A stretch of DNA of 64,000 nt from Cornus controversa (Eukaryota; Streptophyta; Magnoliopsida; Cornales; Cornaceae). Location: contig CM048852.1 in the NCBI GenBank assembly GCA_026545225.1, forward strand, positions 14,170,146 to 14,234,145, in the 5' to 3' direction. Made by a program: the position numbers and the translations under genes. A model generated the notes under the pieces. The model made no database searches and had not been told where the DNA came from. It saw only the letters and a program-made list of their open reading frames with translations. Shown piece by piece: positions 4,935 through 64,000 of the stretch. Position 1 is the stretch's first letter. Each line of letters starts with the position of its first letter.

Positions 4935-6670
4935 GGGTAAATTACCGTTACCTCTCTCGAGATTTTCTTTTATTATTCATAAATTAAAATTTTCATAATA
5001 CGGTGGTCAAACACTCTTGAGATTTGATTGACTTAACTCTGACATCCCATGTCGTTAACTCACCGTTAGCATCGTTAAAGTCCGGTCAAACTAAAACTCT
5101 AAATCCCCAAACTACCCTCATGTGCATCCTATTTACAAAATTATCCTTCTTCTCTCTCACCTCTCTCTCTGTACCAAGTGAAGCATTTACAAAGTAAAAG
5201 AACAATGAAGTACCACCATGTTCGACCATCATTTTCGGCCACAACATGTCCCACCATCAACATATCCGAACAATTGCTAAGCCACAAACTGAAGGACCAT
5301 TGCCACCATTGAAGACCACAGTGGACCCGAGCTCCATTCATCTCCACATGCCAAGAATCCAAGAAGACCCAGAACAACCGTGAACCACCATGCACGGCAC
5401 CACCTTGGAAACTCACCAAACCACCATATTCTCCGTCAACCAAAAAAGCACTGCCAAGCCTTGTCGTGTTATGCACAGCCCACGCCAGAATCGCCACCCA
5501 TGGCCTCCATCATATCCAACCAAGCTTCTCTCCACCGTCTGAAATACACAAATACTAGAGTACCTCAAATTCGGCCAATAACCTCATACGAAACTCCATT
5601 GAAGTCCTCATCAACCATGAACCGAGAAGACCTGTAACAGCCCGCTCCACCTGATGGTATGATATTATCCGCTTTGGGCCTAAGCCCACACAGTTTTCCT
5701 CTTGGGTTTTATCCCAAAAGGCGTCACACCATTTGGAGAGAACACACTACATATAAGCACATCCCCTTCTCCACACCTAGGCAAAGTGAGAGTGAGCACC
5801 CTGTACCCTGTCAGTGTGGTAGCTCACCTAGTGTCTCTTCTTGTACTCGCCCCCATCACACCCGCCCATAAGGGTTACTACAATTCACCCCCCTACGAGG
5901 CCCGACGTCCTCGTCGGCACACTTCCGACTAGGTTCAGGCTCTGATACCATTTGTAACAGCCCGCTCCACCTGATGGTATGATATTGTCTACTTTGGGCC
6001 TAACCCATACAGTTTTGCTCTTGGGTTTTATTCCAAAAGGCCTTATACCATTTGGAGAGAACACATTACATATAAGCACATTCCCTTCTCCACACACAGT
6101 CAATATGGGATTGAGCACATTATACCCTGTCAGTGTGGTAGCTCGCCGAGTGTCTCTTCTTGCACCCGCCCACAAGGGTTACTACAAGACCCTTCTCCAA
6201 ATCATTCTCCATGGCCAGCCACATCTCCATAGTGAGATTCAACATGCACTACCTCCATATGGCTGACCAACAAGCAGCAGCTAGAGTGAGTGGGCGGTTA
6301 GAGGGGAATAAAGAATAGAAAAGGCTTATGGGGAGTGAGAGAAAAAATAAAATAGAAATAATATACTCTCTTTCTCTCAATCTCATAGAGGGAGAGAGAG
6401 AGAGTGATGGTAGAGAGAGAATCGGGTGGATGAGAGAAATAGAAAAAAGAAAAGAAAGAAAAGAAGGAGAGAGAGTGTGGTCGGCTGAGAGGGTAGGTGG
6501 AGATGCCTATGCAAATTATTTACCCTTGAGGGTATAACAGTAAAAGAACCACAAGAGGTAGGAAATTTAACAAAAAGTTTGACCGACAAAGCTGTGGGAA
6601 CGAAAATGTCAAAACTTTCTGTATGTAATAAAAGAGAATATCAGGGAAAGAGAGGATAATATATTTACCC
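4935..6670. mobile_element. Mutator-like (MULE) non-autonomous element with perfect 9-bp target duplication
   Basis: The left end GGGTAAATTACCGTTACC and the inverted right end GGGTAAATATATTATCC begin terminal inverted repeats of roughly 55 bp. TAAATTTAA flanks both sides (4926-4934 and 6671-6679), the 9-bp duplication typical of Mutator. No transposase is visible. The interior (about 5190-5630) is richer in C and A than its surroundings and may be acquired sequence, but no host gene is recognisable. A TRIM retrotransposon is nested at 5633-6186. The left end and flank also occur at 14883, so insertion preceded the segmental duplication. Confidence 0.7.
5633..6186 (-). mobile_element. Complete TRIM retrotransposon (LTR-PBS-PPT-LTR), copy 1
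   Basis: Two LTRs, 5633-5882 and 5953-6186, each start TGTAACAGCCCGCTCC and end TTACTACA as read on the plus strand. The 70-bp internal part holds GGCTCTGATACCA (5938-5950), the complement of a Met-tRNA primer site, and a C-rich tract at 5886-5894 complementary to a polypurine tract. It also carries the CCGACG/CGTCGG palindrome. AGACC flanks both ends (5628-5632, 6187-6191), a perfect 5-bp target duplication. It has no coding capacity and depends on another element's proteins. Its promoter-side module is the GTAACCC type, as at 61.1 kb. Confidence 0.85.
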
Positions 6671-10814: not shown

Positions 10815-11176
10815 GTAATTCTCATATCATTCGATTTCTTCTGCATATATATGTGTTGTATAGATTTGTTTCCTGAAAATAAAATTTGAAATAGTAGTAT
10901 TCTTGTTATTTTTTTCTGTTAAAGGGTTGTCTTATGGGATCGTTTGTGAGAGTGACCGTACCTGCAAGGATAACGAAGATGGAGAGGATAGACAAAGTGA
11001 TGATCACTGTCAAAGCTCTAGTGAAGACGATTGGTGTTTGATTGACTGTTGTGAATCCAATTGGGGAAAATGTTAGTTTGGTTGCAATTGAATCGGGTAC
11101 TATGTGTTTGTCTTTGTGAAGCAGCCATGGTGAAACCAGAGAGTACTGAGAAACCCCATTTGGGCAATATTCAACG
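10815..11176. other. No recognised gene
   Basis: This sequence follows the mannosidase exon. A minus-strand frame here encodes a hydrophobic stretch (TVIITLSILSIFVILAGTV) resembling a transmembrane helix, but it merges into repeat and TRIM sequence. I cannot assign it. Confidence 0.3.
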
Positions 11177-11178
11177 TG

Positions 11179-11228
<50 letters not shown>
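11177..11228. repeat. (TA)n(TG)n microsatellite, insertion site of the composite TRIM
   Basis: A TA run passes into about 15 TG units and is cut by the TRIM. The TG-rich sequence resumes at 12298 (GTGTGTG), showing that the element inserted into the microsatellite. Confidence 0.85.
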
Positions 11229-11234
<6 letters not shown>

Positions 11235-12297
11235 GACCTTGGTTGTGTGGAAGAGGTGTGTTTGTCCCCTCTTGTCCCCAAGGGTGCCCAATCCCACATC
11301 GCCTGGGTGTGGAAAGAGGATGTGCTATATATGTGGTGTGCTCTCTCCAAATGGTATGAGGCCTTTTGGGGTAAAACCCAAGAGCAAAACCGTGCGAGCT
11401 GAGCCCAAAGCGGACAATATCATACCATGTGGTGGAGCGGGCTGTTACAGATGGTATCAGAGCCTGACCTAGCCAGAAGTGTGCCGACGAGGACGTCGGG
11501 CCTCCAAGGGGGGTGGATTGTAAAGACCTTGGTTGTGTGGAAGAGGTGTGTTTGTCCCCTCTTATCCCCAAGGGTGCCCAATCCCACATCGCCTGGGTGT
11601 GGAAAGAGGATGTGCTATATATGTGGTGTGCTCTCTCCAAATGGTATGAGGCCTTTTGGGGTAAAACCCAAGAGCAAAACCGTGCGGGCTGAGCCCAAAG
11701 CGGACAATATCATACCATGTGAGGTGTGTTTGTCCCCTCTTGTCCCCAAGGGTGCCCAATCCCACATCGCCTGGGTGTGGAAAGAAGATGTGCTATATAT
11801 GTGGTGTGCTCTCTCCAAATGGTATGAGGCCTTTTGGGGTAAAACCCAAGAGCAAAACTGTGCGGGCTGAGCCCAAAGCGGCCAATATCATACCATGTGG
11901 TGGAGCGGGCTGTTACAAATGGTATCAGAGCCTGACCCAGCCGGAAGTGTGCCGACGGGGACGTCGGGCCTCCTAGGGGGGTGGATTGTGGTGACCCTTG
12001 TGGGCGGGTGTGATGTGGGCGGGTGCGAGACACTGGGTGAGCTACCACACTGGCAGGCTACAGGGTGCTCAATCCCACATCGCCTGGGTGTGGAATGGGG
12101 AAGTATTATATGTATGTTTATCACCCTTCTATGACACAACGGGTTTTAAAGCCGTGATGGTTGTGAACCCACCAGAACTCCATAATTAAGCGTGCTTAGC
12201 TTGGAGTAGTACCAGGATGGGTGACCCCCTGGGAAGTCTCTAGTCCGGGGGAACCAAAAGCAGACAATATTGTGTCGGGATAAGGTGGGGCGTTACA
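11229..12297 (+). mobile_element. Composite multi-LTR TRIM retrotransposon ending in a 5S-bearing LTR
   Basis: In order: LTR1 11229-11449 (TGTAAAGACC...GCTGTTACA); internal domain 11450-11518 with TGGTATCAGAGCC at 11452-11464 and purine tract AAGGGGGGTGGA; LTR2 from 11519, cut at about 11720; a fused partial LTR3 to 11917; a second internal domain with the primer site at 11920-11932; and LTR4 11987-12297, which starts TGTGGTGACCC and ends GGGCGTTACA. GTGTG flanks both ends (11224-11228, 12298-12302); it lies in a TG repeat so is weak on its own, but the repeat resumes beyond. There is no coding capacity. It is the only copy here with more than two LTRs. Confidence 0.75.
12165..12238 (+). repeat. 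5S rRNA-derived block inside the last TRIM LTR (Cassandra type)
   Basis: CCAGAACTCC, TTAAGCGTGCTTAG and AGGATGGGTGACCCCCTGGG match the central and 3' part of plant 5S rRNA, including the regions that serve as the internal Pol III A and C boxes. Cassandra TRIM elements carry such 5S sequences in their LTRs. The 5' third of 5S rRNA is replaced by sequence of the type GGGTTTTAAAGCCGTGATGG, so this is not a functional rRNA gene. It is read in the same direction as the LTR. Confidence 0.8.
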
Positions 12298-12429
12298 GTG
12301 TGTGTTGTACATACCTCTACAAATTTAAATGTTTCTTCAAATTCATATAGTATTTAGCCACCAATTTCTTCGTCGGCCAATTGGTATGCTGGGAGTTTTA
12401 CTGGGGTTACTACTCTTTGGCTTCCGCGG

Positions 12430-14882: not shown

Positions 14883-15829
14883 GGGTAAATTACCGTCACC
14901 TCCCTCAAGATTTTCTTTTATTATCCATAAATTAAAATTTTCAAAATACGGTGGTCAAACACTCTTGAGATTTGATTGACTTAACTCTGACATCTCATGT
15001 CATGAATTCACCGTTAGCATCGTTAAAGTCTGGTCAAACAAAAACTCTAAATCCCCAAACTACCCTCATGTGCATCATATTTACAAAATTATCCATCTTC
15101 TCTCTCACTCTCTCTGTACCAGATAAAGCATTTACAAAGTAAAAGAACAATGAAACACCACCATGTTCGACCATCATTTTTGGCCACAACATGTCCCACC
15201 ATCAACACATCCGAACCATTACTAAGCCACCAACTGAAGGACCACTGTCAATATTAAAGACCACAGTGGACCTGAGCTCCATTCAACTCCACATGCCAAA
15301 AATCCGAGAAGACCCAGAACCACCGTGAACCACCATGCACGGCACCACCTCAAAAGCTCACTGAACCACCATATTCTCCGTCAACCAAAAAAGCACTGCC
15401 GAGCCTCACCGTGTGATGCACAGGCCACGCCGGAACTACCACCCATGGCCTCTATCATATCCAACCAAGCTTCTCTCCATCGTCTGAAATACACACATGC
15501 TGGAGCACCTCAAATTTGGCCAACAACCTCATGCGGAACTCCATTGAAGTTCACCATCAACCATGAACCGAGAAGACCTGTAACAGCTCGCTCCACCTGA
15601 TGGTATGATATTGTTTACTTTGGGCTTAAGCACGCATGATTTTTCTCTTGGATTTTATCCCAAAAGGCCTCATACCATTTGGAGAGAACATACTACATAT
15701 AAGTACATCCCCTTCTCCACATTCAGCGCGATGTTGGATTGAGCACCTTGTACCCTGTCTGTGTAGTAGCTCACCCAATCTCCCTTCCTGCACCCGCCCA
15801 CATCACACTCGCCCACAAGGGTTACTACA
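14883..15829. mobile_element. Truncated MULE copy with a TRIM remnant
   Basis: The left end GGGTAAATTACCGTCACC and the interior match the MULE at 4935-6670, including the stretch with CACCACCATGTTCGACC. The right end is missing: the copy stops after the left TRIM LTR at 15829, so the TRIM internal domain, second LTR and MULE right end were lost. Confidence 0.65.
15579..15829 (-). repeat. Single TRIM LTR (remnant)
   Basis: It starts TGTAACAGCTCGCTCC and ends GGTTACTACA, equivalent to 5633-5882, and is preceded by the same AGACC. No AGACC follows; instead ATCCATCC resembles the start of a TRIM internal domain. This is a truncated element rather than a recombination solo LTR. Confidence 0.7.
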
Positions 15830-19744: not shown

Positions 19745-19918
19745 AGGGTAATACTACTCAGGCAGAATTCTTAGGCAGAATTCATAGACAGAAAGTTTTA
19801 TATCCATTTGATGCATGTGGTAAGCCCCACTACATACACTCAACACATGCATCCAATGCATGTAAGACTTTCTGCCTATGAATTCTGTTTAAGAATTCTG
19901 CCTGAGTAGCATTATCCT
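19745..19918. mobile_element. MITE with near-complete palindrome and paralogous empty site
   Basis: AGGGTAATACTACTCAGGC at the left matches, inverted, GCCTGAGTAGCATTATCCT at the right. The inverted repeat runs about 50 bp each side, so the 174-bp element can fold almost end to end. The empty site survives at about 7876-7892 in copy 1. The flanking TTATTATTA on both sides suggests a 9-bp target duplication (Mutator type), though the site is repetitive. Confidence 0.7.
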
Positions 19919-23463: not shown

Positions 23464-24426
23464 ATGGCGCCAAACCCATATGCTAAAATAGGCGATTTGA
23501 AATGCTATAGGTGCGACCAACTAGGCCATCGTTCGAATGAATATCTAGCCAGAAAACCAGTGAATTTCGTGGATATCAGAGAAAATGACGAGTACAATCA
23601 CGATGTTGAAGAAGGAGTAGGCATTGACGAACTCCTGGATGGTGCAGAAATTATGAAAGAACAGGGAGAGCATGTCAACTGTGTGATTCAGCGAGTCATG
23701 TGTTCAACGAAGCTGGAGGATTTCTCACAAAGAAACAATATTTTTAAGGCTTGTTGCAGTGTCCAGGGCAAAGTCTATGATTTAATTGTTGACAGTGGAA
23801 GTTATGAGAATTTTGTGTCCAGAAAACTAGTGGAACATCTGAAGCTGCAGGCAGAAAAACATCCAAAGCCGTATGCGATTGGGTGGATTCAGAAGGGGCC
23901 TAAAGCGAACGTGACGGAGGTGTGTAAAGTTCCTATTTCAATTGGGCAGCATTATCGAGATGAGATGGTCTGTGATGTAGTCGACATGGATGCTAGTCAC
24001 GTGTTATTGGGACGACCATGGCAGTTTGATATAGATATCACCTACAGGGGGCGCGACAATGTTTGTGTTTTCAGTTGGGATAGCAGGAAGATTGTAATGG
24101 TTCCGAAGCAGAGTTCCGGTGGTGGCTCAACTAAGGCCACGGTAGAAGATCAGTCCTTAGTCTCTTTAGTCACGTCAGTAACTAAGTTGGAATCTGAAGT
24201 TAAGGAGGCACAGGAGGTACATGTTGTGGTTGTGCGAGCTCTAGTGATAGAAGGCAAGGAAGAGCAGAGAGTTGTGTTACCCGAGGAGGTGCAGTCCTTG
24301 TTAACTGAATTCAGTGAGTTGGTGTCTGAAGAGTTACCAAATAATCTTCCACCGTTAAGAGATATTCAGCACCATATTAATTTAGTTCCGGGAACAAGCT
24401 TACCAAATTCCCACACTATCGGATGA
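23464..24426 (+). pseudogene. Gag zinc knuckle and aspartic protease segment
   Basis: A 320-codon open stretch. Residues about 14-27 form a CCHC knuckle ([14 protein letters not shown]) whose last cysteine is tyrosine. A retropepsin follows, with [10 protein letters not shown] near residue 110 (catalytic D-S-G) and [11 protein letters not shown] as the typical second half. It ends at a stop at 24424-24426, where the reading frame must shift for the reverse transcriptase. The protease would cleave the polyprotein. Confidence 0.8.
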
Positions 24427-25655
24427 GTCACAAGGAGAATCAGATTTTACAGGCTAAAGTGGAAGAATTGTTGCAGAAGGGGTTCATTCGAGAGAGCATG
24501 AGTCCTTGCGCTGTTCCCGCGTTACTAGTCCCAAAGAAATATGGCAATTGGAGGATATGTGTTGATAATCGCACGATCAACAAGATAATTGTCAGATACA
24601 GCTTTCCAATTCCAAGATTGGATTACTGCTAGATATGTTGGAGGGTTCGAAGTTGTTCTCAAAGATTGACCTGCGAAGTGGATACCATCAAATTCGGGTC
24701 AAACCTGGTGACGAATGGAAGACGGCTTTCAAAATAAAGGATGGACTCTACGAGTGGCTGGTTATGCCTTTCGGATTGTCCAACGCACCTAGTACTTTTA
24801 TGCTGCTTATGAACCAGGTATTCCGACCTTTCATTGGAAAATATGTAGTCGCCTATTTTGATGACATACTGATTTAGTCAGAGTGAGAAAAATCATATAG
24901 AGCATCTACGGGCTATGTTAGAGGTGTTGTCCGAAAATAAGCTGTTTATCAACTTTCAAAAATGCAGTTGGCTGACAGAAAGATTGTTATTCCTTGGGTA
25001 TGTGGTTAGTTCGGAGGGAATAATGGTTGATGATGAAAAGGTGAGAACCATTCGTGATTGGCCTACACCAAAGACACTAGGAGAGGTGAGGAGTTTCCAT
25101 GGGTTAGCGACATTTTATTGTCAATTTATTAGGGACTTCAGTAATATTATGGCTCCTATTACAGAGTGCTTAAAGAAGGGTAAGTTTCAGTGGAGTGAAG
25201 ATGCCGACACAGCTTTTGCAGTCATTAAAGAAAAATTATGCACTACTCCTATTTTGGCTTTACCCAGTTTTGAGAAACTATTCGAGGTGGAGTGTGATGC
25301 TAGTGGAATTGGGATTGGAGTAATTCTGTCACAAGAGAAGAGACCAGTGGCATTTTTTAGTGAGAAACTTAGTGATGCACGCCGAAACTGGAGTACCTAT
25401 GACCAAGAATTTTATGCTATTGTCTGTACTCTGAAGCATTGGGAGCACTATCTGATTCAGCGAGAATTTATTCTTTACACTGATCACCAAGCTTTGAAGT
25501 ATCTAAACAGTCAGAGGAGTTTAAGTAATATGCATGCTCGGTGGGCGACCTATATGCAGAAGTTTCCTTATGTGCTGAAACACAAATCTGGGATTCTGAA
25601 TAAGGTGACGAATGCATTAAGTCGATGCACGAGTTTACTAATCACTATGCAGTAA
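24423..25655 (+). pseudogene. Reverse transcriptase and RNase H, frameshifted
   Basis: Three frame segments: 24423-24632 ([19 protein letters not shown]), 24635-24877 ([26 protein letters not shown], active site YFDDILI) and 24915-25655 (connection domain and RNase H with [26 protein letters not shown]). Frames change near 24625 and 24873. The catalytic Y-x-D-D is intact, but the polypeptide cannot be made in one piece. The remaining stop at 25653-25655 precedes another shift into integrase. Confidence 0.85.
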
Positions 25656-25695
25656 GCGATTATTGGGTTTGAGTTCTTGAAAGAGTTGTATTCTG

Positions 25696-26922
25696 ATGAT
25701 GAAGATTTCGCTGAGGTATGGAAAAAATGTGGTCGTAGCTAGACAAACAGAGGGAGAATTCTATTTGGTCGAAGGGTACCTGTTCCGTGGTAATCAGTTA
25801 TGTATTACTCGGAGCTCTTTGAGGGAGAACCTGATTCGAGAGTTACATAGTGGAGGTGTGAGTGGTCACTTGGGGCATGACAAGACTATCAGTGGGATAG
25901 CCGAGCGGTATTACTGGCCTCAGTTGAAACGCGACGTGGGTAACCTTGTTCGCAAGTGTTATGTTTGTCAGACTTCTAAAAGGCAAGCTCAGAATGCAGG
26001 TCTTTACATGCTTCTACCTGTAAAGAATGCCATATGGGAGGATTTATCGATGGATTTTGTTTTAGGTCTTCTACAAACTCAATGTGGAGTAGACTCTGTG
26101 TTTGTTGTGGTTGACAGGTTCTCCAAGATGGGACATTTTATCCCTTGTCAGAAGACATCTAATGCGTCACATGTGACTCAACTGTTCTTTCGTGAGGTGG
26201 TCCGTTTACATGGAATTCCTCAGTCTATAACCTCTGATAGGGATTCAAAATTTCTTAACCATTTTTGGGTTACATTGTGACAGTGGATGGATACTACTCT
26301 AAAGTTCAGTAGCACTGTGCACCCGCAGACCGACGGGCAGACTGAGAATCTAAATCGAACACTGGAAAATTTAATTCAAAGCATTTGTGGTGACAAGCCT
26401 AAACAGTGGAATTTAGTTCTGGCACAAGCTGAATTTGCGTATAACAATGCAGTTCACACTGCTACTGGTAAATCTCCTTTTGCTTTAGTGTATCGACACC
26501 CTCTTAAGCATGCGTTAGACCTGGCACGTCTTCCCAAGGTCACTGGAACAAGTGTTGCTGTCGAGAACCTGGCTGAGCATGTTCGCGATGTTCATGCTGA
26601 AGTAAAGGCGCGATTAGAGGAGAAGAATGTGAAGTATAAAGCTGCAGCAGATGTGAAGAGATATGAGAAATTATTCATTGAGGGTGATCAGGTTATGGTG
26701 TTTCTGCGTAAGGAAAAGTTTTCAGTTGGTTCCTATAACAAGTTAAAGCCAAGGAAGTATGGGTCGTACAAGGTGATCAAGAAGATCAATGACAACGCCT
26801 ATGTGATTGACTTGCCTGCTGATATGAACATATCTCGTACTTTCAATGTAGCTGACCTTTATGAGTTTAGTGATGATGTTTCACTTTATCTAGATTATAA
26901 CTCGAGGTCAAGTTCTTTGTAG
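25696..26922 (+). pseudogene. Integrase, interrupted by an in-frame TGA
   Basis: The HHCC zinc domain (HLGHDKT...CYVCQTSK), the core with LSMDFVLGL and [27 protein letters not shown], and [18 protein letters not shown] are all visible. A TGA at 26278-26280 falls in the same frame within the core. The C-terminal part has [16 protein letters not shown] and [10 protein letters not shown]. No chromodomain follows. Integrase would insert the DNA copy and leave 5-bp target duplications. Confidence 0.85.
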
Positions 26923-27442: not shown

Positions 27443-27567
27443 CTGTCTCTCTTTCTTTCTGTTTGAAATTCTGCTGTCTCATTTGTATATAAATCTGTAA
27501 TTTTGTCATTTGATCTCTTGCAACAGAAACAAACATATATGGAATAATAGAACAAGTGCTATGTATA

Positions 27568-27575
<8 letters not shown>

Positions 27576-27650
<75 letters not shown>
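27576..27650. repeat. (TA)n microsatellite, about 37 units
   Basis: The longest pure TA run in the window. Tyr/Ile-repeat frames across it are artefacts. Confidence 0.9.
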
Positions 27651-32089: not shown

Positions 32090-32600
32090 TGTAACAGCCC
32101 GCTCCACCACATGATATGATATTGTCTGCTTTGGGCCCAGCTCGCAAGGTTTTGCTCTTGGATTTTACCTCAAAAGGACTCATACCATTTGGACAGAGCA
32201 CACCACATATATAGCACATCCTCTTTTCACACCCAGGCGATGTGGGATTGAGCACCCTTAGGGACAAGAGGGGACAAACACACCTCTTCCACACAACCAA
32301 GGTCTTTGCAATCCACTCCCCTTGGAGGCCCGACGTCCTCGTCGACACACTTCTGGCTGAGTCAAGCTCTGATACCATTTGTAACAGCCCGCTCCATCAC
32401 ATGGTATGATATTTTCCGCTTTGGGCCCAGTCCGCACGGTTTTGCTCTTGGATTTTACCCCAAAAGGCCTCATACCATTTGGAGAAAGCACACTACATAT
32501 ATAGCACATCCTCTTTTCACACCCAAGCGATGTGGGATTGAGCACCCTGGAGGACAAGAGGGGACAAACACACCTCTTCCACACAACCAAGGTCTTTACA
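32090..32600 (-). mobile_element. Complete TRIM retrotransposon, copy 2
   Basis: Two LTRs of exactly 221 bp (32090-32310, 32380-32600), each starting TGTAACAGCCCGCTCCA and ending in CAAGGTCTTTGCA or CAAGGTCTTTACA, enclose a 69-bp internal domain. This carries AGCTCTGATACCA (32365-32377, inverted primer site with one change) and the palindromic CGACGTCCTCGTCG. Flanks GTAAC (32085-32089) and ACAAC (32601-32605) match at three of five positions. The LTRs are of the AGACCTTGG type, like LTR1 of the composite at 11.2 kb. Confidence 0.8.
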
Positions 32601-35018: not shown

Positions 35019-38000
35019 TGAAATACCCCCAGAAAAGTTTGCACATGAGGTGGCCAGTCTCATACACAAAACCTGAGGGATACTAACAATTGATAGCAAA
35101 CAAGCATAGAATACAATGACAAAAGAAAAAGAATTATAAATGCTGAAAGGAAAGTCTAATTGAAATGAATAATCATGTTAAATAACATTGTATTATTCTG
35201 ATTGATACAACTTGGAAGTCCGGTAACTCACGAACCCCTTAACCAAACAAAAACATAAAAATAAAACTTTATGAACAGATTTAAGTCCCTACACTAAAGT
35301 ATAGTGAAGAATGGATGATCGTCACGCTCTACAACCTCCATGCACAAATCTCCCGATATAAACTGTCTGGAACCTGAAATATCAACAAAGTGGGTTAAAC
35401 CCACGAGCAAATTCTCTCTACTACAACCCAATCAGAGAACCGGTAAACATACCCTCTATATGAGGACACTAAAGACATATAGATATAATTATACCGTTTA
35501 GTCATTAAATCTCTTATCTTAGAAGTAACTAGAACTATGTTCTGAACTAACCCATCCATTATCACAATACAGATAAAACAAATTTCTAAGTTCAAATCAT
35601 AGACAATCCTAACATACTTTCTTCCATATATTCTATAAATGCCTTACAAAGTATTAGGCATACCTATCCTGCCTCCATCAATAATCATTTCCCAAGACAA
35701 CAAATTTATGTTTATATACAATTAAAGATAATCCACCAACTCATAAATATATATCCCCAATTAACCATATGACCCAAGAATAGAGCCGCCCCACACCCTA
35801 CACTAACACATCAGTTATCTTAATGCAAGTGCAGACTAGTTTTAAGTTTACACAAGAAACAATGGTAACATGCTCGAATATATAACGAGAAACATTCTTA
35901 CTAGATATTAGGCAATCCTGACATGCTCCAAATAAAATATAAAGATACCATATTAGGTGTTTGGCGATCCCGACACGCCTTGGCAATCCCAACATGCCAA
36001 ATATAATGCATAGATACCTTATTAGGTATTAAGCGATCCCGACACACCTTGGCAATCCCAACATGCCAAATATAATGCATATATACCTTATTAGGAATTA
36101 AGCGATCCTGACACGCCTTGGCAATCCCAACATGCCAAATATAATACATAGATACCTTATTAGGTATGGGCGATCCTGACACGCCGGGCAATCCTTACAT
36201 GCCAAAATAAAATGCATAGATACCTTATTAGGTATGGGCGATCCTGACACGCCTTGGCAATCCCAACATGCCTTGGCAATCCCAACATGCCAAATAAAAT
36301 GCATTGATACCTTATTAGGTATGGGCGATCCTGACACGTCAGGCAATCCTTACGTGCCAAATAAAATGCATAGATACCTTATTAGGTATGAGCGATCCTG
36401 ACACGCCGGGCAATCCTTACATGCCAAATAAAATGTATAGATGCATTCCCAATATGAAACATAAAATAAACAAGGTGCATTATAATCTTAATTTGCACAA
36501 ACAAAGTAATTCAAATTATCCGACATGAAATTATCACCATAACACAATCGTTCACAAGTAAACTATAATCAAGTATTTAATGGGCATTTATATCCTTGAA
36601 GGAAAATACATTCAAGTAAATCAAATAACACAATTTAACCACTTTAGAAGCAAACACCCAATCCAACCCCTAATGCACTCAAATTTATGAGGGAGTCTAA
36701 ACCAACATCTTATCTAGGTTTTTGGGCCTATTCTACTTCTAAGAACCCTATTAAATCATTCTGGAATTTTTCTAGAATTTAAAAAAATATTTTCAACAAA
36801 TAAAAGAAGGTGAAAACCCAACTTTTAGACACTTTAAAAAAATTCATTGAACATTAAGGAAAGCTCCTTTCAAGATGAAAATTTAAACCCAAGTTTATTT
36901 AACCTCCAGAAAGTTACCACAAAAATTTGGGAATTTTTGGAATTACAAAAGTATTTTCTAAAATTACAGAAAGTGAAAAAACCCAATTTTTGGACACTTT
37001 AAAAATTAATTGAACAACAAAGGAAGATCATTTTGAGTTGGAAATTTAAACCCAAGTGTATATAGCCTCCAGAAAGTTTCAGTAAAAATTTGAGAATTTT
37101 CAGAACTTTATAAGTATTTTCTAAAATTAAAGAAGATGAAAAACCAGTTTTTAGACACTTTAAAAATTAATTTAAAGATAATGGTAAATCATTTCGACAT
37201 GAAATTTAAACTCCAAGGTCCTTAAGCTCCCAGAAAGTTGACATTAAATTTTGGGAATTTTTAGAATTATAAAAGTATTTTTAAAAAATGATTTTTCCAA
37301 ATTTTCAAGTTTTTCCAAAAAATTCAAAAATTCAAAACAAATAATAAAATAATTCGGAATGGGCCCATATCGGACCCAGAGGTGGGCCCCCGAGAGTGGG
37401 CCCCAAAAATGACCTTCCGGTCACCGGAAGTCACCGGCGCCGGCCGGATGCGCCCCCACGCGCCGGTGGCGCGCTGGCCCTTCCTTTTTTTTTTTTTTCT
37501 TTCTTTCTTCTTCCTTCTTCTTCCTGAAGCTACGCGCGCACAACAATGGTGGAAAACTTCCCGATCACTTTCCGATCACTTCCGGGCACCAAATCGCGTA
37601 TATAAATATACCATTGAACTCGTATCGATTTAAGCTACGCATTGGTACCAAAATCATCACCTCTCGCGGCCTAAATTAAAAACGCCCAATTTCAAGTTTC
37701 AAAAATCTAAAATTTCAAACTCAATTTTCCGTCAATCTACCCAACGGTTCACAACCAAACTTTCAAGAATTGTTCTAGGAAGTAAGATCTACCTTTTAAT
37801 CGGAACAAAAACGTTCAAAAATGATAAATACAGTAAACCCAATTTCATGTATATATATATATATATATATACATGCCTATACAGTCATATATACATGTAT
37901 ATATATGCAAAAACACCCTAAAACAATACCAAAACTCCAAAATCTTCATGTTTAATTCACAGAAATTCTTAACATGAAAAATCATTTAGTTTCATAATTA

Positions 38001-54219: not shown

Positions 54220-57200
54220 TGAAATACCCCCTAGAAAATTTTGTGCATGAGGTGGCCAGTCTCATACACAAAACTTGAGGGATACTAACAACTGATAGCA
54301 AACAAGCATAGAATACAATAACAAAAGGAAAAAAATTATAAATGCTGAAAGGAAAGTCTAACTGAAATGAATAATCATGTTAAATAACATTATATTATTC
54401 TGATTGATACAACTTGGAAGTCCGGTAACCCACGGACCCCTTAACCAAACAAAAAACATAAAAGTAAAACTTTATGAATTGATTTAAGTCCCTACACTAA
54501 AGTATGGTAAGGAATGGATGATTGTCAAGCTCTACGAACTCTACACGCAAATTTTTAGGTAAAAGTTGTCTGGAACTTGAAATATTAACAAAATGGGTTA
54601 AATCTACGAGCAAATTCTCTCTACTACAACCCAATCAGAGAACCGGTAAACATACCCTTTATATGATGACACTAAAGACATATAGATATAATTATACCTT
54701 TTAGTCATTAAATCTCCTATCTTAGAAGTAACTAGAACTATGTTCTGAACTAACCCATCCATTATCACAATACAGATAAAACAAATTTCTAAGTTCAAAA
54801 CATAAACAATCCTAACATGCCTTCTTCCATATATTCTACAAATGTCTTACAAAGTATTAGACAAACCTATCCTGCCTACACCAATAATCTTTTTCCAAGA
54901 CAACAAATTTATGCTTATATACAATTAAAGATAACCCACCAGCTCATAAATATATATCCCTAATTAACCCTATGACCCAAGAATAGAGCCACCCCACACC
55001 CTACACTAACACATCAGTTATCTTAATGCAAGTGCAGACTAGTTTTAAGTTTACACAAGAAATAATCGTAACACGCTCGAATATATAACGAGAAACGTTC
55101 TTACTAGATATTAGGCAATCCTGACATGCTCCAAATAAAATATAAAGATACCATATTAGGTGTCTGGCGATCTCGACACGCCTTGGCAATCCCAACATGC
55201 CAAATATAATGCATAGATACCTTATTAGGTATTAGGCGATCCCGACACGCCTTGGCAATCCCAACATGCCAAATATAATGCATATATACCTTATTAGGTA
55301 TTAGGCGATCCTGACACGCCTTGGCAATCCCAACATGCCAAATATAATATATAGATACCTTATTAGGTATGGGCAATCCTGACATGCCGGGCAATCCTTA
55401 CATGCCAAAATAAAATACATAGATACCTTATTAGGTATGAGCGATCCTGACACGCCGGGCAATCCTTACATGCCAAAATAAAATTCATAGATACCTTATT
55501 AGGTATGAGCGATCCTGACACGCCGGTCAATCCTTACATGCCAAATAAAATGTATAGATGCATTCCCAATATGAAACATAAAATAAACAAGGTGCATTAT
55601 AATTTTAATTTGCACAAACAAAGTAATTCAAATTATCCGACATGCAATTATCACCATAAGAAAAATCGTTTACAAGTAAGCTATAATCAAGTATTTAATG
55701 GGCATTTATATCCTTAAAGGAAAATACATTCAAGTAAATCAAGTAATACAATTTAACCACTTTAGAAGCAAACACCCAATCCAACCCCCAATGCACTCAA
55801 ATCTATGAGAGAGTCTAAATCGAACTCTTATCTAGGCTTCTGGGCCTATTCTACTTCTAAGAACCCTATTAAATCATTTTGGAATTTTCTGAAATTTAAA
55901 AAATATTTTCAACAAATAAAAGAAGGTGAAAAATTCAACTTTTAGACACTTTAAAAATTAATTGAACACCAAAGGAAGCTCACTTCGTGATGAAAATTTA
56001 AACCCAAGTTTATTTAACCTCCAAAAAAGTTACAGCAAAAATTTGGGAATTTTTGGAATTACAAAAGTATTTTCTAAAATTATAGAAACTGAAAAACCCA
56101 ACTTTTGGACACTTTAAAAATCAATTGAACAACAAGGAAAGATTATTTTGAGTTGAAAATTTAAAACTAAGTGTATTTAGTCTCCAGAAAGTTACAGTAA
56201 AAATTTAGAAAGTTTTGGAAATTTCTAAGTATTTTCTAAAATTAAAGAAACTGAAAAATCCAGTTTTTAGACATTTTAAAAATTAATTTGAAGACAATGG
56301 TAAATCATTTCGACATGAAATTTAAACCCCAAGCTCCTTAAGCTCCCAGGAAGTTGACATAAAATTTTGGGAATTTTTAGAATTATAAAAGTATTTTTAA
56401 AAAATGATTTTCCGAATTTTCACGTTTTTCCAAAAATTTTAAAAATTCAAAACAAATACCAAAATAATTCGGAATGGGCCCATATAGGACCCAGAGGTGG
56501 GCCCCCGTAAATGGGGCCCAAAAATACTTTTTCGGCAACGGCCTCCGCCGAAGCCGGTGGTGCGCTGCCCCACCTTTTTTTTTTCTTCTTCTTCTTTCTT
56601 ACCTGAAGCTCCACGATTTAACAATGGTGGCCGAACTTCCCTATCACTTTCCGGTCACTTCCGGGCACCGAATCGCGCATATGAATATACCATTGAACTC
56701 GTATCGATCTAAGCTACGCATTACTACCAAAATCATCCCCTCTCGCGGACTAAATCAAAAACACCCAATTTCAAGTTTCGAAAATCTAAAATTTCAAACT
56801 CAATTTCCCGTCAATCTATCCAACGGTTCACAACCAAACTTTCAAGGATTGTTCTAAGAAGTAAGATATACCTTTTAATCGGAACAAAAACGTTAAAAAA
56901 TGATGAATACAGTAAACCCAATTTCATGTTAATATATATATGTATATATATATATATACCCGCCTATACAGTCATATATACATGTATAAACATATGCCAA
57001 AATACTCTAAAACAGTACCAAAACTCCAAAATCTTCATGTTTAATTCACAGAAATATTCTTAGCATGCAAAATCATTTAGTTTCATAATTAATTGCATAC
57101 AAATTTTTAGCAACATGTCTATACAATTAATATATATATTATACATATATTCTAGCAACATGTATATACAAAAATATATATGCACACAGATTCAAAGGGG

Positions 57201-61076: not shown

Positions 61077-61622
61077 TGTAGTGACCCTTGTTGGCAGGTG
61101 TGATGTGGGCGGGTGAGAGAGACACTGGGTGAGCTACCACATCGGTAGGCTACAGGGTGCTCAATCCCACATTGCCTGGGTGTGAAGAAGGGGGTGTGCT
61201 TATATGTAGTGTGTTCTTTTCAAATGGTATGAGACCTTTTGGGGGAAAATCCAAGAACGAAACCATACAGGCAAAGCCTAAAGTGGACAATATCATACTA
61301 TATGGTGGAGCAGGCCATTACAAATAGTATCAAAGCTAGACCCAGCCGAAAGTGTGTCGACGGGGACGTCGGGCCTCCTTGGTGGGTGGATTGTACTGAC
61401 CCTTGTGGGTGGGTGTCATGTGGGTGGGTGCGAGAGACAATGGATGAGCTACCACACTGACAGCCTACAGGGTGGTCAATCCCACATCACCTGGGTATGG
61501 AGAAAGGGATGTGCTTATATGTAGTGTGTTCTCTCCAAAAGGTATAAGACTTTTTGGGGTAAAATTCAAGAACAAACCCAAAATGGACAATACCATACCA
61601 TGTGGTGGAGCAGGCTATTACA
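61077..61622 (+). mobile_element. Complete TRIM retrotransposon, copy 3
   Basis: LTRs 61077-61322 and 61392-61622, from TGTAGTGACCC or TGTACTGACCC to GCCATTACA or GCTATTACA. The 69-bp internal domain has a decayed primer site (TAGTATCAAAGCT) and CGACGGGGACGTCG before the purine-rich GGTGGGTGGAT. GTTAG flanks both ends (61072-61076, 61623-61627), a perfect target duplication. The upstream LTR module is the GTGACCC type shared with LTR4 of the composite element. The decayed primer site and many changes suggest an older copy. Confidence 0.85.
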
Positions 61623-62090: not shown

Positions 62091-64000
62091 TGTCACGCCC
62101 CGAAATTTGGACCGCCGGGACTCCCCTGGTCCAAGTCCAAACTTCAAGTAGTGAGGTGTCATAATCACCCAATCGTCGCCCCATAACTCGAGCAATCATG
62201 ACAAATTACCATTGATTACCCTCTAATATTATCATCAATACCAATCTATCACACCCGGAGTGTTGGGCCACGACTCATCGTGGAAGTCTTTATATTCATT
62301 AATACATCAATCCCTCACTGAACGTGTCACAACGATCAACAAAACTAATTATCATTCATAAATTAGCGGAATCATTATATATACATTAATCCTATTAATT
62401 ATAATGATCATTCTCTCTATGGAACCTCACATGTACATGACACACATCCATTCACTCATAACAATTCATTTAAGCTCACTTAGCATATGGTCATTATAAT
62501 ACATCGCAACAAGGGTTACGATGCATCGAGATTGTACGATCCAAATTCTATGTTGCGTAATAAGGTATGAAACCTACTATTTTTGATCACCCACTTCCCT
62601 CAATTTACGATACATCATAATGCACATTTTGATGCATCGTAATTGGTGATGCATCATAATGCCCATTATGATACATCGTAATCCTGCACCAGTTATTATT
62701 TCACATGTATACTTAGTCCATTTCATACTCTATCTCAACTCAATCATGCTAGCATTTGCATAGATGCATAATTGAACATTGATGAAATGGAATTATAAAC
62801 CATCATTCTCATCATACATGATCCTCATTCTACTAGTTCACTGATATAACCATTCTCACAAGTTACACATATAAAAATGAAAATAAATGAAGGATTCATC
62901 ATTTAAAACACCTCGCATACTAACATGCTTAATACCATGCTTATAATATATGAAATTGTAAGGCACTAACAATATATGTTCAAAACCAACATTTAAATGT
63001 ATGCAATTATAAAGCATAAGGGATATTTGTTCTTGAAACACAAATGGTCATTACATGTTTATCACATGCATATAGTCCACAATCCAGATATACATTCAAA
63101 TAAAGTAATATAAGTCCTTAAATGAATCCAAGATCTGCTCAACGCCGATACTCTATTGGGGAGACTCCATCACCTCTTTCCTATTTCCTGAAAAATATTA
63201 ATCTTCATGGGATGAGAAACCACACGCTCAGTAGGAATGTCTAAAACACAATTTCACAAGTTCCATGAATACCATATCATACATTTGTATATTATTATAT
63301 TGAGCAAATATTGATGTATCATAACCATATTATAAGCAAAGTGTAATGCATAACTCCCTCATACTCTCCACATATCTATTGGGTTCCGATTTTACGAGCC
63401 GCCCAATCCTACCTAATTGAGGTTTCAAAGCCGATTTACCTCCTCAAAAGACTCCGTTTTAAGGAGTATTCCCTTCCATTCTAGTCTAGAGCCCCAATTA
63501 AGAATCACTCCATAGGGTTCCAAAGTCAGATTGCCCCACATGGATTTATACTAAATATTATGCCACCTCAAGAGGGCTCTCAACCCCAATTGAGCGCACT
63601 ACCCTCACCAAACTAACCAATGACGATGCACCCACATGTTGATGCTAGCATGTATTAACAATTTACTCAATGTAACCATAACAATCATGTTTCCACTGGT
63701 GTGGCTAAACTCAGATTATATTGTAAGCTTAATTTTGCCCTTTTTATCAAAATATAATTTAACCACTCGCAAGAGCACGAATCTTTGTAGATAAGGTTCT
63801 ATATAGAGGGTATCGATCCCACGAGGACTAGTCGCAATTGTCTTAAAGAAAGATTAATTCCACTTTAATCCTAAAAACAGGTTTTTGAATTTTTGTTTAT
63901 AAACTATTACATGAATGTAATGACAATAAAATCAAAAAGTAAAGGATGGGAGAGAGAACTAGGGTTGGTTTCTACCACTAGCCATTCACATGTTCATAAG
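62091..64000 (+). mobile_element. Probable LTR of a Ty3/Gypsy-type element, entering from 62091
   Basis: TGTCACGCCCCGAAATTTGG is a typical start of long LTRs in plant Ty3/Gypsy elements. The following sequence is non-coding, with repeated TGATGCATCATAATG-like motifs at 62520-62690. No end or partner LTR is in the window. GGTATCGATCCCACGAGG at 63810-63827 is a motif I associate with plant retrotransposon non-coding regions. No gene is visible to the window end. Confidence 0.4.

Follow-up and report, generated by a model that had tools for sequence, protein, structure and literature searches.

A composite TRIM array in a Cornus controversa GT repeat joins 5S-free long terminal repeats to a 5S-bearing, Cassandra-type repeat

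The window analyzed here, 64,000 nucleotides of Cornus controversa DNA (GenBank assembly GCA_026545225.1, contig CM048852.1, positions 14,170,146 to 14,234,145), contains at 11229–12297 a composite of 1069 bp, which is built from the long terminal repeats (LTRs) and internal regions of terminal-repeat retrotransposons in miniature (TRIMs) and is sited inside a GT repeat. The composite was read, aligned to itself and to related copies in the window, and compared with Rfam; the open-access literature on TRIMs and on the 5S-bearing Cassandra elements served as the comparison set. It is known from one copy in one assembled sequence. Its modules, all of which lie on the plus strand, are LTR A, internal 1, LTR B without its 3′ end, fused to LTR C without its 5′ end, internal 2, and LTR D. 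This module order and its coordinates reproduce the initial annotation, which had described LTR, internal, LTR fused to LTR, internal, and LTR inside one TG microsatellite.

LTR A (11229–11449) is a complete A-type (plain) TRIM LTR of 221 bp, which begins with TG, ends with CA, has no 5S sequence, and carries TATATA at LTR position 98. The following internal 1 (11450–11518) is an A-type region of 69 bp extending from a primer-binding site (PBS) to a purine-rich end. LTR B (11519–11720) and LTR C (11721–11917) are also A-type: (i) LTR B retains 202 of 221 bp, with the 3′ 19 bp absent; and (ii) LTR C retains 197 of 221 bp, with the 5′ 24 bp absent. The two are fused LTR to LTR with an overlap of at most 1 bp. 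LTR B differs from LTR A at 2 positions (200/202 identical) and LTR C at 4 positions (193/197 identical), and the 3 LTRs belong to one 5S-free TRIM family (97.8–99.0% identical). Internal 2 (11918–11986) again spans 69 bp from PBS to purine-rich end; the exact PBS TGGTATCAGAGC is located at 11452–11463 and at 11920–11931, and both internal regions terminate in the purine-rich GGGGGGTGGAT. LTR D (11987–12297) is a Cassandra-type LTR of 311 bp, likewise bounded by TG and CA, whose first ~130 bp are common to the E-type TRIMs (described below).

The outer ends of the composite, TG and CA, are intact. The left flank is a GT microsatellite (11196–11228), the final 5 bases of which (GTGTG, 11224–11228) form the left copy of a possible target duplication; the right copy is formed by the first 5 bases (12298–12302) of the right flank GTGTGTG (12298–12304). 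GTGTG begins at 150 of ~128,000 positions over both strands, many of them within the composite's own GT repeat. Because the left flank is a GT run, the left GTGTG is given by the repeat, and the right one is above chance. The outer ends, the PBS, the 69-bp internal regions, and the presence of 4 LTRs (2 of them incomplete) and 2 internal regions are features of a TRIM array. A mechanically predicted open reading frame (ORF) of 244 amino acids on the minus strand (10906–11640) overlaps the first composite modules. An Rfam match to RF01295 (11122–11246) was dropped; it scored 22.1 bits against a cut-off of 65 and covers the GT/AT repeat.

BLAST with the composite modules located 4 other copies in the window, which represent 2 lineages without 5S. 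The E-type lineage includes a full TRIM at 61077–61622 (plus strand, target duplication GTTAG), a full TRIM at 5633–6186 (minus strand, target duplication GGTCT), and a single LTR at 15579–15829 (minus strand). The A-type lineage includes, besides LTRs A, B, and C and internal 1 of the composite, a TRIM at 32090–32600 (minus strand). None of these 4 copies sits in a GT repeat. The A-type LTRs begin with TGTAAAGACC (one copy with TGCAAAGACC) and the E-type LTRs with TGTAGTGACCC, TGTACTGACCC, or TGTAGTAACCC; LTR A has no match to the E-type LTRs before position 53; thereafter, it is 82.9% identical over 170 bp to the first of the two LTRs at 61 kb. Paired LTRs, compared with gaps excluded, agree at 84.8% of positions in the 61 kb TRIM, 89.7% in the 5.6 kb copy, 92.3% in the 32 kb copy, and 99.0% in the case of LTRs A and B; the E-type copies in the window are older on a simple clock. 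The flanks of the 32 kb TRIM, GTTGT and GTTAC, are not perfectly matched as a target duplication. The copies at 5633–6186 and 15579–15829 have common 3′ flanking DNA (GGTCTTCTCGGTTCATGGTTGATG...) and therefore look like parts of a duplicated locus, in which one copy is without the left LTR and the internal region. An exact-pattern scan with the TRIM core found no place in viral contigs (20 bases) or in prokaryote contigs (21 bases).

LTR D contains a 5S-derived block at 12165–12238, corresponding to 5S positions 31–104. When realigned, this block fell at the coordinates previously given for it, and it matches a plant 5S reference sequence at 63 of 74 bases. The Rfam 5S_rRNA model matches 12136–12252 with 31.9 bits (E = 2.9e-4 for 1501 bases and 0.012 for the whole window), which falls under the gathering score of 38, so that the match is not reported at that threshold. 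It is the sole 5S match among 13 Rfam matches in the window, in agreement with the earlier statement that the first LTRs carry no 5S sequence. Neither Rfam nor module alignment revealed a further 5S-bearing LTR or Cassandra element in the window. Box C is exact (12214–12226), and a box A-like motif (12184–12195) with 1 mismatch is separated from it by 18 nucleotides; that is to say, the Cassandra boxes are present in a loose sense.

The start of the 5S sequence in LTR D is placed at 12135 by counting back from the alignment and at 12136 by Rfam. Shortly past it lies TTTT (12144–12147), and the next TTTT is at 12396. PMC10886601 locates both the start and the end of Cassandra transcription in the 5S part of an LTR, the start in the 5′ and the end in the 3′ LTR, with an 18-bp duplication. 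The TTTT would fit a Cassandra transcript ending in the 5S part of the 3′ LTR, and it may act as an RNA polymerase III (Pol III) terminator when LTR D is the 3′ LTR. Upstream, TATATG (12107–12112) occupies positions −28 to −23 relative to the inferred 5S start and aligns with the TTATAT of the E-type LTRs, which is located at LTR positions 112–128 in these and at 120 in LTR D. A figure legend in PMC8928438 marks the TATA-like motif of plant 5S genes at the same place (−28). The GC at −12/−11 marked in that legend is unmatched in LTR D (AC), and one strand of the window alone has TATAT at 527 places; the position of TATATG may therefore be a coincidence.

The initial annotation had matched the 5′ 130 bp or so of LTR D to the TRIM at 61.08 kb. 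This match was recovered (86.4% over 132 aligned columns with the first LTR and 85.8% over 127 columns with the second), but it is not special to that element: the LTRs of the 5.6–6.2 kb copy (82.2% over 135 columns and 79.6% over 108) and the LTR at 15.6–15.8 kb (82.4% over 136) also align, and the first ~130 bp of LTR D are found in all 5 E-type LTRs of the window. Thus, the match is a lineage feature. Positions 1–78 of LTR D score 61–114 against the 5 E-type LTRs and 14–18 against the 5 A-type LTRs; in 300 shuffles run against a single E-type LTR, the highest score was 24. We defined a diagnostic LTR column as one in which both 32 kb LTRs share a base absent from all 5 E-type LTRs, at least 4 of which agree with one another. 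At the 29 columns so defined, LTR A has the A-type state at 29/29, LTR B at 28/29 (with 1 E-type state), and LTR C at 22/22, whereas LTR D has 20 E-type states, 6 A-type states, and 3 others; 17 of its first 18 states are E-type. After position ~130, the alignment of LTR D with the E-type LTRs is limited to one short AAAGC(A/G)GACAATAT-like motif close to the 3′ end. The description of LTR D as an E-type LTR with a simple 5S insertion was rejected, its sequence past position ~130 being unlike the E-type and its end being nearer to the A-type.

The position of the change from A-type to E/Cassandra-type sequence can be bounded. Two sites separate the internal regions of the A-type copies (internal 1 and 32 kb) from those of the E-type copies (61 kb and 5.6 kb), and internal 2 has the E-type state at both (11943 and 11974). 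Since the last A-type LTR site is at 11869 and the first E-type internal site is at 11943, the switch probably lies at 11870–11942, an interval that spans the end of LTR C and the PBS and depends on the 2 internal sites. These sites are the weakest link of the argument; a cautious bound that dispenses with them, set by the first E-type site of LTR D at 11991, would be 11870–11990. Internal 2 and its LTR C were also considered as a plain duplicate of LTR A and internal 1, which was rejected because the 2 lineage-diagnostic sites differ, though the internal regions are 94.1% identical overall. Because its 5′ module and, by 2 sites, internal 2 group with the second 5S-free TRIM lineage, LTR D need not be a new hybrid LTR. 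In the simplest reading, it would be an ordinary LTR of the plant's own Cassandra lineage, and the recombinant part would be its neighborhood. Were all complete Cassandra elements (LTR D, internal, LTR D) of this plant to begin with TGTGGTGACCC, LTR D would be native to Cassandra, and the hybrid character would be confined to the array; with another 5′ module in most of them, LTR D itself would be a recombinant LTR. The earlier proposal of a recombinant between a plain TRIM and a Cassandra element is therefore retained for the joining of 2 lineages, in an apparent single insertion with a bounded switch, and not for LTR D as a new hybrid.

Ordinary reverse transcription, including template switching within one element, normally yields 2 identical LTRs. 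Another process is therefore needed for an element with an A-type left LTR and a Cassandra right LTR, and template switching, which had been suggested as the cause, does not by itself explain why LTR C is unlike LTR D. We tentatively favor, at somewhat less than even confidence, an origin in which a plain TRIM complementary DNA (cDNA) was joined end to end with a hybrid cDNA and the product was integrated once into the GT repeat. The first cDNA-like piece (LTR A, internal 1, and LTR B) would be an ordinary A-type TRIM, and the difference of 2/202 between its LTRs is that expected for 2 LTRs of one element. The second piece (LTR C, internal 2, and LTR D) would be a hybrid, with a left LTR of A-type and a right LTR and, by 2 sites, an internal region of the Cassandra lineage. 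Such a hybrid could arise if A-type and Cassandra RNAs were reverse transcribed together in the same particle and the A-type plus-strand strong-stop DNA jumped via the shared PBS onto the Cassandra minus strand, which would put an A-type LTR in front of a Cassandra internal region and LTR and place the switch at the LTR/PBS border. The subsequent end-to-end join of the 2 linear cDNAs would have cost 19 and 24 bp, and the machinery of an autonomous partner would have integrated the product by the outer ends of LTRs A and D. We infer the cDNA stage, the second-strand jump, the end joining, and the single integration from what is observed directly: the order of the modules, the lineages of their LTRs, the switch bounds, the trimmed LTR–LTR junction, and GTGTG on both sides.

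Precedents for separate steps are found in the cited literature. Template switching yielding concatenated Cassandra cDNA is proposed as one array route in PMC7215508; a case for intermolecular second-strand transfer in HIV-1 is made in PMC5651808; small indels at LTR–LTR joins of circular DNA in carrot are read in PMC9324142 as a sign that linear copies were joined end to end; and a rice tandem is attributed in PMC11899658 to a single insertion with a 5-nucleotide duplication. The trimmed join of LTRs B and C contrasts with arrays in which an LTR is shared.

Several observations weigh against this origin or against the lineage assignments on which it is built. (i) From 12095 on, LTR D is mixed (3 E-type states, 6 A-type states, and 2 others at 11 sites); some of these states may perhaps reflect an alignment shift around the TATA motif. 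(ii) When the last 56 bp of LTR D were compared with 4 of the 10 other LTR ends, the scores were 25 and 29 for 2 A-type ends (a level reached by 0 of 1000 shuffles in either case) and 19 and 19 for 2 E-type ends (reached by 15/1000 and 11/1000 shuffles). (iii) The E-lineage assignment of internal 2 depends on just 2 fully diagnostic sites, and overall internal 2 is most identical to internal 1 (94.1%), followed by the 5.6 kb (91.4%), 32 kb (89.9%), and 61 kb (88.4%) copies; its closeness to internal 1 is perhaps caused by more private changes in the other copies. (iv) The left GTGTG is weak as a target duplication, its flank being a GT run. (v) The end-joining precedent of PMC9324142 covers circles rather than concatemers, and the B/C join would likewise be expected from a deletion within a longer array. 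(vi) The window holds no second copy of the composite, and the support comes from this single one.

The main rival, which we regard as possible though not probable, is chromosomal. An A-type TRIM array and a Cassandra element would have recombined within the conserved PBS/internal stretch, by ectopic crossover or by gene conversion, and a subsequent deletion of ~112 bp would have removed the end of LTR B, one internal region, and the start of LTR C. The switch does fall within a conserved stretch, recombination between adjacent elements is favored for multi-LTR TRIMs in PMC4528315, and recombination is one of the 2 explanations of arrays in PMC7215508. Crossover between unlinked elements should, however, give unrelated flanks, whereas both flanks here are GT repeat, and the extra deletion is required in addition; the passages cited from PMC7215508 expect unlike units from ectopic exchange and report none in the arrays described there.

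Two independent insertions into one GT repeat, an A-type TRIM and a hybrid, with a deletion removing the intervening repeat and the ends of LTRs B and C, would agree with the deletion-like absence of 19 and 24 bp at the join; this is very unlikely, as it needs 2 hits in one short repeat, the kind of site that none of the 4 other copies occupies, and leaves the unlike LTRs C and D unexplained. An assembly artefact that merged A-type and Cassandra short reads into one order is highly doubtful, for although near-identical units of 200 bp are difficult to assemble, LTRs A, B, and C each have private substitutions, and both outer ends show exact LTR termini and GT repeat.

The initial annotation had further proposed that the composite could combine RNA polymerase II (Pol II)-type LTRs with a Pol III-type internal promoter. 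The 5S promoter is present in 1 of the 4 LTRs, the outermost 3′ one, and points outward; a combined Pol II/Pol III competence is therefore unlikely. The sequences past the TATA motif in LTRs A and D are too dissimilar for a common repeated region (R), so that a transcript from LTR A would undergo first strand transfer without one. Judging from this anatomy, movement of the composite as a unit is unlikely, as is any benefit from 2 promoter types, and the composite is probably a dead-end product, a fossil without function.

Elsewhere in the window, LTR retrotransposon pieces are located at 23464–26922, with aspartyl protease, RNase H, and SH3_Tf2-1 domains (Pfam) in separate ORFs. A protein search with the ORF at 1350–2018 yielded 5 hits among 96 candidates; the best hit, a Prunus brigantina protein with 38% identity, is consistent with a plant source. 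Matches to microRNA families at 19775–19888, 27556–27642, 37841–37914, 56929–57000, and 62606–62680 score below the gathering scores and are possibly simple repeats.

The 3 types of LTR in the window might also be read as snapshots of the transition from plain TRIM to Cassandra, a proposal that we consider unlikely. The unique 3′ region (U3) would derive from an E-type TRIM, as would the TATA motif and the internal region; the downstream stretch would have been replaced by a 5S module of ~70 bp; and the old TRIM TATA motif would thereby have come to −28, the site of the upstream TATA-like motif of plant 5S genes. If this is true, the composite would be evidence that the 2 lineages are able to share particles and to recombine, and a 5S module could thereby be carried from one TRIM family to another.

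TRIM arrays are common (PMC4717578 and PMC4528315), and so are Cassandra arrays, whose units are described as almost identical (PMC7215508). The tandemly arrayed TRIMs (TA-TRIMs) of Gao et al. 2016 (PMC4717578) likewise have several LTRs and internal regions per array flanked by a target duplication; the forms given, such as L3I2 and L5I4, are within a subfamily, and the cited passages name no mixed array. Unlike these, the composite is L4I2, has a trimmed LTR–LTR join, and includes 2 lineages. The rice tandem LTR retrotransposons of Morales-Diaz et al. 2025 (PMC11899658) resemble it in the single insertion and the 5-nucleotide duplication; they are coding elements that share internal LTRs, and the part cited describes no mix of plain and 5S lineages. 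Among the matches listed in the TRIM and Cassandra literature searched, to the extent that these sources were consulted, no mixed plain-TRIM/Cassandra array was found.

The likeness to Cassandra (Kalendar et al. 2020, PMC7215508; Maiwald et al. 2024, PMC10853983) consists of the 5S block of LTR D, the exact box C, the box A with 1 mismatch, the box spacing of 18, which is the Cassandra layout according to PMC7215508, and the exact PBS TGGTATCAGAGC of internal 2. Cassandra has 5S in each LTR, and the composite as a whole, with 5S in 1/4 LTRs, the last, differs from it in this respect. In the passage of PMC4717578 on this point, 5S sequences were found in no TRIM family besides Cassandra. PMC10853983 treats the choice between a single and a multiple gain of the Cassandra 5S as unsettled and considers that a Cassandra-like TRIM lacking 5S may have been the precursor. 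The Carduoideae Cassandra-like TRIMs without 5S described there have internal sequence in common with Cassandra. The E-type TRIMs resemble these in the absence of 5S, the TATA motif, and the sequence shared with a 5S-bearing lineage, and differ in that the first ~130 bp of the LTR are also common with the 5S-bearing LTR. E-type TRIMs with the 5′ module of LTR D, together with a composite that joins the lineages, would thus give concrete material on the origin of the Cassandra 5S.
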